In this document: one piece after another, positions 54,231 to 57,343 of the stretch
Layout of the letters: every line of letters starts with the position of its first letter
Position numbering within the stretch: the first letter of the stretch is position 1
From: Persephonella marina EX-H1
GTDB lineage: Bacteria; Aquificota; Aquificia; Aquificales; Hydrogenothermaceae
Direction of reading: 5' to 3'
Length of the DNA stretch: 64,000 bases
NCBI RefSeq assembly: GCF_000021565.1
Contig: NC_012440.1
Coordinates: forward strand, 1,504,210 to 1,568,209
Translations under genes and position numbers: made by a program
Notes under the pieces: model-generated
Seen by the model: only the letters and a program-made list of their open reading frames with translations
Database searches by the model: none
What the model was told of the DNA's origin: nothing

Positions 54231-55472
54231 TTACAATTTTTTAAGACTTTTTTCTCCTATTTTGGAATACTCCCTTCCAAGTTTCCCACAATGCTCAGCT
54301 CCGTAAATACGGACAGACAGCATACCTGACAGTATCTTCTCCCTGTTTGATATTAACAGCTCTTTTATTTTTTCAGGATCAAAACCCAGGCTTCCATCAG
54401 GGAGTGTATCGCTGTAAAACTCTACATAACTTTCAGCGTCAGGGTTTCCTATAATCAGGTTTGTTGATTCTGAATCTGGAATAAAGTCAGCCTCAAGCTG
54501 TAGCTCAATCTTTGCATCCTGAGGTATGCTGTTATCTGTTATAAAAACAGGATCAGTAAACAATCTCGGCTTTTTTAACGATTCTGCTTCTGGGTTATCA
54601 GTTATCCATATCTGAACATTTCCCTTATTAAGGTTCAGCACTACTTTATCCTCTTCTTCATAAGACCTTGCGACTTTTGCCCTTAAAACACTTTTTAATG
54701 ATGACGAGTATGGAAGGACTCTATGGGGAACAGGCTCTTTATTTACAGTAAGAACAGATCTTATAAGTCTCCATCCTATAAATTTAAATTTATCTTCTTT
54801 AACCTTCAACCCTAAACTTTCTGCAAAAATCCTGATATCTTTTATGAATAAAAGCTCCTCCCTGCTACCTGCTATCCTTCCCCTACCAAATGATACAAGC
54901 TCAGATATGTATCCCTTATCTTTTCTCTGCTGGAAAAGTGCATACATACATCCGCAGTAGTTCTGGTGGTATAACTGGTATTCCTTTGAGAGTCTGTTCA
55001 TATTTTCAACACCACCTTTCTTTCTGAAATCAACAGCTAAAAACTCAAGTCCGTACTTTCTCCCGATACTCTCTCCAACATCCTTTAAAACCTGGAAATC
55101 TTTTTTTGGGCTCATGAGAAGAACTGTTGTAAACTTATTGAAATTAAGTTTTTTAGCCAGCTTTGCTGTCTCTTCAAGTCTAAGATCGTGACAGACAGTG
55201 CATCTTTTTCCCCTTTCAGGCTCATTCTCTAAACCTTTTGTAAGATCTATCCATCTTTCTATATCATAATCTCCTTTTATACACTCAATCCCTAAATCCT
55301 CACATATTCTTAATGTTTCTATCCATCTCAGCTCATACTCCTCTTCAGGATGTATGTTAGGGTCGTAAAAAAATCCTTTTATCTGTGCATCAGGAAAGTC
55401 CATCTTAAGCTTTCTTAAAGCCCATACAGCATCAACACCACAGCATATATGAACGAGAATTTTATCTTCCAT
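54231..55472 (-). CDS. queH: epoxyqueuosine reductase QueH with C-terminal extension
   Basis: About 413 residues. Residues 1-190 are QueH (DUF208): HICCGVDAVWA near residue 8, GFFYDPNIHP, CTVCHDLRLEETA near 93 and NYCGCMYAL near 175 supply the cysteine set for the iron-sulfur and catalytic metal sites. It reduces epoxyqueuosine to queuosine in tRNA. Most QueH proteins end near 190-200 residues; here about 220 residues of unrecognised mixed alpha/beta sequence follow. ATG 55472 has AAGGAG seven bases upstream, preferred to a TTG at 55490. Overlaps the HNH gene by 11 bp. Confidence 0.85.
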   Translation of the reverse strand: MEDKILVHICCGVDAVWALRKLKMDFPDAQIKGFFYDPNIHPEEEYELRWIETLRICEDLGIECIKGDYDIERWIDLTKGLENEPERGKRCTVCHDLRLEETAKLAKKLNFNKFTTVLLMSPKKDFQVLKDVGESIGRKYGLEFLAVDFRKKGGVENMNRLSKEYQLYHQNYCGCMYALFQQRKDKGYISELVSFGRGRIAGSREELLFIKDIRIFAESLGLKVKEDKFKFIGWRLIRSVLTVNKEPVPHRVLPYSSSLKSVLRAKVARSYEEEDKVVLNLNKGNVQIWITDNPEAESLKKPRLFTDPVFITDNSIPQDAKIELQLEADFIPDSESTNLIIGNPDAESYVEFYSDTLPDGSLGFDPEKIKELLISNREKILSGMLSVRIYGAEHCGKLGREYSKIGEKSLKKL

Positions 55473-56049
55473 CTTCAAGCTCCTTCTCAAGTATCTGGAT
55501 TATAAACTCCGTTACACTTTTTCCATTTCTCTCAGCTTCCACCTTTAATCTCTCTTTAAGCTCTGCAGGTATCCTTATAGTTATCTGTGAGAAGTCTGAA
55601 AGTATGTTTGCAACTGTGGAGTAGCTTATCCCTGTTTTTCCTGATATCTCCTTTATTGATAAACCTTCTTCCCTGAGTTTCAATATATCTAAATGTTTTG
55701 ATCTATCAATCCTGTTACCCTTCAGGTAAGGTGTCCATCTAAGGTTATCTGCCCTGTTGTTCTCCCTGTTCCCATCTATATGCTTTACATATCTGTACCC
55801 TTCAGGATTTGGGACAAAGTATTCAGCAACAAGCCTGTGGACAAAGAATACTTTATGTTTTTTACCATCTGAAAGATGAACCTTTATGTATCCCTTTTTG
55901 TCCCTGTAGCCTTTTAATCTCTTTTTTCTGTAGTTCTCAGGCAGAAGACCGTATCTGAGATCCCTGTAAACATAGCCGAGATTTGATATTCCGTAGTTTG
56001 GAAACTCTTTTATTACCTTTATCTCCTCTTCTTCAAATATGTAGCTCAA
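55462..56049 (-). CDS. free-standing HNH homing-type endonuclease with HTH and ribbon-helix-helix tail
   Basis: 195 residues in four parts: NUMOD4-like (8-55, KVIKEFPNYGISNLGYVYR), HNH_3 nuclease (about 70-105, FVHRLVAEYFVPNP and KHIDGNRENNRADNLRW), a helix-turn-helix (about 121-151, ILKLREEGLSIKEISGKTG) and a C-terminal ribbon-helix-helix (about 155-195, ITIRIPAELKERLKVEAER). NUMOD4-HNH-HTH is typical of intron or phage homing endonucleases; the RHH tail is unusual. TTG 56049 is the start, five bases after AGGAGG. It is not inside an intron or intein and precedes queH. Confidence 0.82.
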   Translation of the reverse strand: MSYIFEEEEIKVIKEFPNYGISNLGYVYRDLRYGLLPENYRKKRLKGYRDKKGYIKVHLSDGKKHKVFFVHRLVAEYFVPNPEGYRYVKHIDGNRENNRADNLRWTPYLKGNRIDRSKHLDILKLREEGLSIKEISGKTGISYSTVANILSDFSQITIRIPAELKERLKVEAERNGKSVTEFIIQILEKELEDGR

Positions 56050-56068
56050 GTTATCCTCCTGATGAATG

Positions 56069-56107: not shown

Positions 56108-56227
56108 AATCTGTGATCATATATTATATAACTTCAAAAATGCAATATAATGTCAATTATAGATCCTTTTTGAAATATAATAGTATAGAACTTCAATTTA
56201 ACTCATTTTTTTCTTAGGTCCATTATC

Positions 56228-56389: not shown

Positions 56390-57343
56390 ATGATAAGACT
56401 TTTTGTTAGAGAAGGCTTGAATATAAGGATTGAGATGGTAAAGGATCTCTCCATTCCTTTTGAGAATGTTGAGAATGTTCTCTGGATAGATATGGTCTCC
56501 CCAACAGATCAGGAGATAAAGTGGGTATCAAAGAATTTTGAGGTCAGATTTCCCTCAAAACAGGAGATGGAAGAGATAGAGATATCCTCAAGATACTGGG
56601 AAGATGAGGAGAGTATAACTATTAATGCCTACTTCCTGATAACAGAAAAAGAGCATGCATTTAACGAAACTGTAACATTTATACTGAAAAAACATTTTCT
56701 TGTTACCGTAAGGTACAGGGAGCTTAAAACATTTAACGAGCTTGTTAAAAAGCTTATGATGAACCCGAGATTTTATGAGGACGGGTACTACATACTTGCA
56801 GGTATAATGGAGATAAGAATAGATATAGATGCTGATACTCTTGAGTTTATAACAAGGGAGATATCAAAGCTGAGTAAGATAGTTTTTACAGGTATAGACA
56901 TAACTGAGGAGATTCTTGAGACGATCTCCTACTATGAGGATTTTAATATGACTATAAGGGAGAATATCATAGACAAACAGAGGATACTTTCATCGCTCTT
57001 AAAAAGCTACAAGATACCACAGCCTGTAAGGGAAGAGATAAGAATAATGATAAAGGATATAAACTCACTCATAGATTACACAACATTTAATTTTGAGAGA
57101 CTTGATTATCTGCAGAACACGTTTTTAGGTCTCCTTAATATTGAACAGAACAAGGTCATAAAGATATTCACAATCATGTCAGTTATATTCCTCCCGCCAA
57201 CTCTGATAGCAAGTATATACGGGATGAACTTCAGGTTTATGCCTGAACTACAGTGGGAGTTTGGTTATCCATTTGCTGTATTTCTGATGGTATTCTCTGC
57301 ACTTCTACCTCTATTTATATTCAAGAAGAAAGGTTGGCTTTAA
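56390..57343 (+). CDS. corA: CorA-type magnesium/cobalt transporter
   Basis: 317 residues: a large cytoplasmic N-terminal alpha/beta domain, long stalk helices (about 130-260), and two C-terminal membrane helices. The selectivity motif GMN is present (IYGMNFRF near residue 278) after TM1, and the basic C-terminus FKKKGWL closes the protein. It forms a pentameric channel for Mg2+ or Co2+. The second position after GMN differs from the usual FxxMP[E] only slightly (FRFMPELQW). ATG 56390 has only a weak ribosome site. Confidence 0.92.
   Translation: MIRLFVREGLNIRIEMVKDLSIPFENVENVLWIDMVSPTDQEIKWVSKNFEVRFPSKQEMEEIEISSRYWEDEESITINAYFLITEKEHAFNETVTFILKKHFLVTVRYRELKTFNELVKKLMMNPRFYEDGYYILAGIMEIRIDIDADTLEFITREISKLSKIVFTGIDITEEILETISYYEDFNMTIRENIIDKQRILSSLLKSYKIPQPVREEIRIMIKDINSLIDYTTFNFERLDYLQNTFLGLLNIEQNKVIKIFTIMSVIFLPPTLIASIYGMNFRFMPELQWEFGYPFAVFLMVFSALLPLFIFKKKGWL

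Follow-up and report, generated by a model that had tools for sequence, protein, structure and literature searches.

An HNH homing-endonuclease-like protein with a ribbon-helix-helix tail, encoded beside a dif-like palindrome in Persephonella marina and its relatives, as a candidate exapted DNA-binding regulator

A gene in the genome of Persephonella marina EX-H1 (2 contigs, 1,983,966 bases) was originally predicted to code for a free-standing HNH homing endonuclease with an added C-terminal ribbon-helix-helix (RHH) domain, and the question raised by this locus is whether the product is a DNA-cutting enzyme or a DNA-binding protein that descended from one. The gene lies in a stretch of 64,000 nucleotides, the window, from whose first letter the features collected in Table 1 are numbered. 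The predicted ORF and its strong ribosome-binding site were found as proposed, and full-length matches of 40-50% identity in several relatives (first search, 61 genomes) rule out a chance ORF. An intron-borne HNH gene was considered and dropped, with 0 Rfam introns within the 64-kb window. The neighbouring QueH is 413 aa long, its Pfam match covers residues 5-179 only and about 230 C-terminal residues are without a match; the length of this 413-aa type is kept across the family.

Table 1. Features of the HNH locus in the window
Feature	Position	Strand	Basis or remark
NUMOD4-HNH-HTH-RHH gene (HNH gene), 195 aa, TTG start	55462..56049	minus	ORF call, Pfam
Ribosome-binding site AGGAGG of the HNH gene	56055..56060	minus	
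NUMOD4-like region, residues 11-60	55870..56019	minus	Pfam
HNH_3 domain, residues 69-106; retains H90 (I-HmuI H75) and N102 (I-HmuI N87)	55732..55845	minus	Pfam, alignment
K89-H90; K in place of the I-HmuI metal ligand D74, H90 = general base	55780..55785	minus	alignment
G111-N112; second metal-ligand position (I-HmuI N96 = W+6), here G	55714..55719	minus	alignment, model
HTH, residues 121-154	55588..55689	minus	Pfam
RHH (Arc/CopG/FitA type), residues 155-192	55474..55587	minus	Pfam, Foldseek
queH (PF02677), 11 bp overlap with the HNH gene	54231..55472	minus	
Putative dif (Xer) site, core TATAATTGACATTATA (gene direction)	56140..56167		sole exact copy in the P. marina genome
corA, divergent, across the palindrome from the HNH gene	56390..57343	plus	

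The proposed domain reading, NUMOD4-HNH-HTH with an RHH tail, was borne out. The HNH_3 (E 7.7e-10), HTH_23 (E 8e-7) and FitA-like_RHH or RHH_1 (5e-7 and 3.6e-6, respectively) matches of the P. marina protein were above the curated cut-offs, while its NUMOD4 match was below (19.5 against 23.4 bits); NUMOD4 was matched in 14 of the 15 orthologs. The AlphaFold model, built with the ortholog alignment, had a mean pLDDT of 87.8, and Foldseek revealed I-HmuI as its best structural match (1u3e, E 3e-8) and a similarity of the tail to Arc-type RHH (1bdv, TM on target 0.76). The modelled tail comprises helices 162-174 and 179-193, RHH-like but without the strand. On the Pfam scores and the superposition on Arc, the tail is predicted to fold as RHH, in line with the original prediction.

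RHH_1 was matched in 12 of the 15 orthologs and the RHH was retained in the four (G030, G034, G027 and G062) in which the HTH is deleted; the tail of the gene is shortened in G064, a genome of 55% completeness. The RHH was found in none of the 139 NUMOD4/HNH_3 relatives sampled beyond the family, nor among the inspected matches from phage and plasmid collections, and a literature search returned no described fusion uniting HNH, RHH and homing endonuclease, in keeping with the suggestion of a possibly undescribed architecture. Three phage matches extending into the tail region (H13, H18 and H20) were rejected, their tails being HTHs and not RHH. In addition, a conserved frame of about 625 residues, present in many Hydrogenothermaceae genomes, gave a weak match to the RHH section of the profile (e.g. 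G000:C2:1063749-1063997).

The conserved catalytic residues of I-HmuI are D74, H75 and N96 (PMC12724721), and D40 and N62 of T4 endonuclease VII, the equivalents of D74 and N96, bind metal (PMC6083498). Alignment of the 15 orthologs revealed that the first-ligand position is occupied by K, I, V or L and never by D, and the second by K, R or G and never by N. Among 147 other relatives, taken from viral contigs as well as genome contigs, D, N, H or E stood at the first position in 123 and N, H or D at the second in 126; the loss in the orthologs differs from that in these relatives with Fisher p values of about 5e-11 (first) and 1e-11 (second), in a comparison that ignores kinship. Roughly 10-15% of the relatives are without one ligand, and some of those could be active. 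The AlphaFold model showed no helix between the strand at 103-106 and the helix at 116-127, with pLDDT below 50 for residues 110-114, so that, as judged from this model, the helix of the beta-beta-alpha-metal fold of HNH is absent. The protein is very probably catalytically dead, as far as its sequence indicates. Against this, H90, N97, N98 and N102 (the structural Asn) are invariant across the orthologs, and the invariance of H90 and N102 is compatible with a weak or altered nuclease activity.

A NUMOD4-HNH-HTH family of Bacteroidota and Chlorobiota, mostly of about 190-270 aa (motif IHLDYNK..NN...NLKWAT; loci L214, L228, L231, L232, L236, L237, L239 and L242-L251), has no D, N, H or E in front of the catalytic His and in almost all cases lacks the N96 ligand; its sequences are those of what is possibly a second, independent lineage of dead-HNH regulators. 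An unlinked NUMOD4-HNH protein of genus g4 (G023:C154:1034-1789, locus L025) carries both likely metal ligands (N-H and N96) and is a candidate active relative.

A profile search identified the HNH gene, full or nearly full and one per genome, in 15 of 136 Aquificota genomes, all of them in the genera g1, g3 and g7 of the Hydrogenothermaceae; most genera of this family are without it. The gene order in g1 and most of g7 is corA, intergenic region, HNH gene, queH, rodZ-like, nth and rsmG, with two additional genes next to corA in G006 and G027 (g7). In g1 and g7 the gene is thus largely fixed at one place without conservation of the nuclease, a situation that the original prediction had named as speaking against it. 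The position before queH was as described, but the linkage is secondary: the two genes lie on separate contigs in G035, and in g3 (G010 and G017) corA, a small gene and queH directly follow one another, the HNH gene being located elsewhere. A functional tie between the HNH gene and queH was consequently discarded.

Pairwise identities of the HNH protein were strongly correlated with those of queH (r = 0.95 over 78 pairs, including the three unlinked genomes), a value raised partly by close pairs. Since the HNH protein identities follow the queH identities even where the genes are unlinked, vertical inheritance is the simplest reading of these sequences. The same-place orthologs and the congruent divergence ruled out a mobile homing endonuclease newly inserted before queH, and the sporadic, mobile distribution expected of I-HmuI-type homing endonucleases was not observed. 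Omega, estimated by the Nei-Gojobori method on small segments, was 0.05-0.07 for NUMOD4 plus HNH in seven informative pairs, a sign of strong purifying selection and no higher than the 0.06-0.11 of queH; the HTH and RHH were looser, mostly at 0.1-0.3. None of the 15 members contains an internal stop, and the invariant columns persist over deep divergence. With both metal ligands lost in 15 of 15 orthologs and the gene vertically inherited, the name homing endonuclease was not upheld, and the protein is not filed as one here, as it departs from the I-HmuI family in both metal ligands and mobility.

Analysis of the upstream regions revealed a palindrome, ATATAATGTCWATTATAT, 38-96 bp upstream of the start codon in all 15 members and over three genomic contexts; the distance between the end of the core and the start codon is 38-55 bp in 14 members and 96 bp in the P. 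marina window. The sequence ATATAATNNNNATTATAT or a close variant lies upstream of every member and tracks the HNH gene, not queH, through the contexts. It was detected in 22 of the 41 genomes scanned, the copy number per genome ranging from zero to two and usually being one; with near matches included, all 15 carriers have it. Single copies also occur in the gene-less genomes G003, G001, G007, G023, G025 and G015, and the centre is often shared (GTCA, GTCT or GTAT). The format is dif-like: about 28 bp, two inverted arms on either side of a short centre and, in essence, a single copy per chromosome. Nearly all genomes encode a single conserved Xer recombinase (e.g. G000:C2:821626-822432), about 300 aa long, that scores under the XerD cut-off, and the Xer/dif system of the family is perhaps of the single-Xer type; in other lineages, dif sites served by one recombinase have inverted arms that are long and unbroken (PMC9765430).

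In G011, which lacks the HNH gene, two dif-like copies 8.25 kb apart surround a phage-like element (L279, 2930-11210), likely an Xer-integrated element in Aquificota; it codes for an RHH repressor, a weak G2P-type replication protein and an M15 endolysin. Comparison of loci L283, L284, L020 and L023 indicated two main neighbourhoods of the dif-like site in the family, one near corA (g1, g7, g2 and G023) and the other near a nucleotidyltransferase gene (g3 and g8). The P. marina copy agrees with the E. coli dif sequence at 13 of 28 positions, which is not significant alone, and the case rests on the family. GC skew in 20-kb samples of three genomes was uninformative as to the replication terminus, and the palindrome lies at 8% to 36% of the chromosome length from dnaA, depending on the genome. 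The palindrome is nevertheless probably the dif site of the Hydrogenothermaceae, for which a literature search returned no published description.

The palindrome was initially read as the operator of an autoregulated HNH gene and not as dif, as the originally suggested self-repression would predict, a reading to which its symmetry, its promoter position, its uniqueness in P. marina and the weak likeness of that copy to E. coli dif all lend themselves, and for which I-TevI is a precedent as an autorepressing homing endonuclease (PMC2988022). Because the site occurs singly, often with the same centre, in six genomes without the gene and as a pair around the G011 element, an operator is unlikely; this reading was abandoned and keeps only a small probability. 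A gene beside dif would also be accounted for if the protein were still an active, free-standing homing endonuclease that targets the dif region, since free-standing homing genes typically adjoin their target (PMC2988022); the constant adjacency in three contexts and the four invariant residues fit this, but the absence of both ligands from every ortholog and of the metal-bearing helix from the model, the divergence congruent with queH and a distribution that is not sporadic within g7 make it improbable.

Integration of mobile elements at dif is known (PMC5357621), and the gene might be a decaying or neutral remnant of such an Xer-integrated element, as the HTH deletions in four members and the short tail in the low-completeness G064 might suggest; no second dif-like copy, which would mark an integrated element, was found flanking the HNH gene, and purifying selection on the NUMOD4-HNH part, together with the uninterrupted frames and invariant columns, largely refutes a remnant, which we regard as very unlikely. 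A dedicated dif-site factor, binding by dif so as to modulate Xer recombination or to protect the site from phages and elements that integrate there, is rather doubtful, although it has more in its favour: adjacency in all members at a near-constant distance and with differing flanking genes, and a gene-less genome, G011, with a phage-like element between two dif-like copies. Speaking against it are the many Hydrogenothermaceae genera without the gene, the orientation of the core relative to the HNH gene, which differs among members, and RHH ribbon residues that vary beside a constant palindrome. At the ribbon base-contact positions the P. marina protein has Q-T-R, as in Arc, whose contacting pattern is Q9, N11 and R13; in the other orthologs I/L-S/T predominates, followed by S, T, E or Y.

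The reading that we favour, by a modest degree of confidence, is an exapted homing endonuclease, vertically inherited and acting as a DNA-binding regulator by the dif-like site or its own start. The ligand loss, the purifying selection, the congruence with queH and the constant palindrome adjacency are seen directly in the sequences, and from them we infer that a former NUMOD4-HNH homing endonuclease would have retained its DNA-binding scaffold but lost cleavage, along with both catalytic metal ligands and the metal-bearing helix, acquired the RHH tail and descended vertically within Persephonella-type Hydrogenothermaceae. The protein would act as a sequence-specific DNA-binding regulator, probably as an RHH-mediated dimer, and its most likely target would be the short stretch from the dif-like site to its own start codon, through which it could control its own operon (which in most species includes queH), the occupancy of the dif-like site, or both. 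Direct recognition of the palindrome by the RHH is not favoured, because the ribbon residues differ among relatives that share a constant palindrome, and the RHH may serve dimerisation only. Autorepression is possible; no conserved upstream operator apart from the palindrome was found among the members. A role at dif has its appeal, since the gene stayed with the dif-like site when its surroundings were rearranged, yet it is absent from most related genera; the stronger statement, that an Aquificota lineage turned a homing endonuclease into a resident dif-locus protein regulating Xer recombination or excluding dif-integrating phages, is put forward as a speculative possibility.

If the exaptation is true, a selfish DNA-cutting gene has become a resident DNA-binding protein, an HNH counterpart of WhiA, with an RHH module that was not seen in the sampled NUMOD4/HNH_3 relatives. 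The analysis also proposes a dif site for the Hydrogenothermaceae and links a putatively domesticated nuclease to it, and the like metal-site loss in the Bacteroidota family suggests that annotations as "HNH endonuclease" conceal several dead, regulatory lineages.

Among known systems, the IMEX dif-integrating elements (PMC5357621, PMC9765430) resemble the HNH gene in being tied to dif, here a putative one, but the HNH gene has one dif-like copy, no recombination module and no flanking repeat. The C-terminal 38 residues match RHH_1 and FitA-like_RHH and superpose on Arc, as in the repressors and antitoxins Arc, Mnt, FitA and CopG, in contrast to which the RHH is fused to a NUMOD4-HNH scaffold and no toxin partner was seen adjoining the gene. 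I-TevI offers a parallel as a homing endonuclease able to occupy its own promoter (PMC2988022), but it is an active GIY-YIG nuclease, while the protein described here is of the HNH type and its operator is only putative. The phage homing endonucleases of the I-HmuI/NUMOD4-HNH_3 group (PF13392, PF07463, phrog_59 and phrog_959) share the fold and the order NUMOD4-HNH-HTH, and I-HmuI also the general base His and the structural Asn; unlike in I-HmuI, D74 and N96 are replaced, the helix is missing from the model and an RHH tail is added, and the gene is chromosomal, apparently vertically inherited and situated beside a dif-like site. WhiA, a transcription factor derived from a LAGLIDADG homing endonuclease (PMC3781837, PMC11701221), has an unrelated nuclease fold and is widespread and experimentally tested, whereas the HNH protein is confined to one bacterial family and known from sequence. 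Both combine a homing-endonuclease scaffold with a DNA-binding domain in a host-kept regulator, a role that is presumed for the HNH protein, and the WhiA-like trait of exaptation, loss of catalytic residues together with purifying selection on the scaffold, was found in the HNH protein as well.
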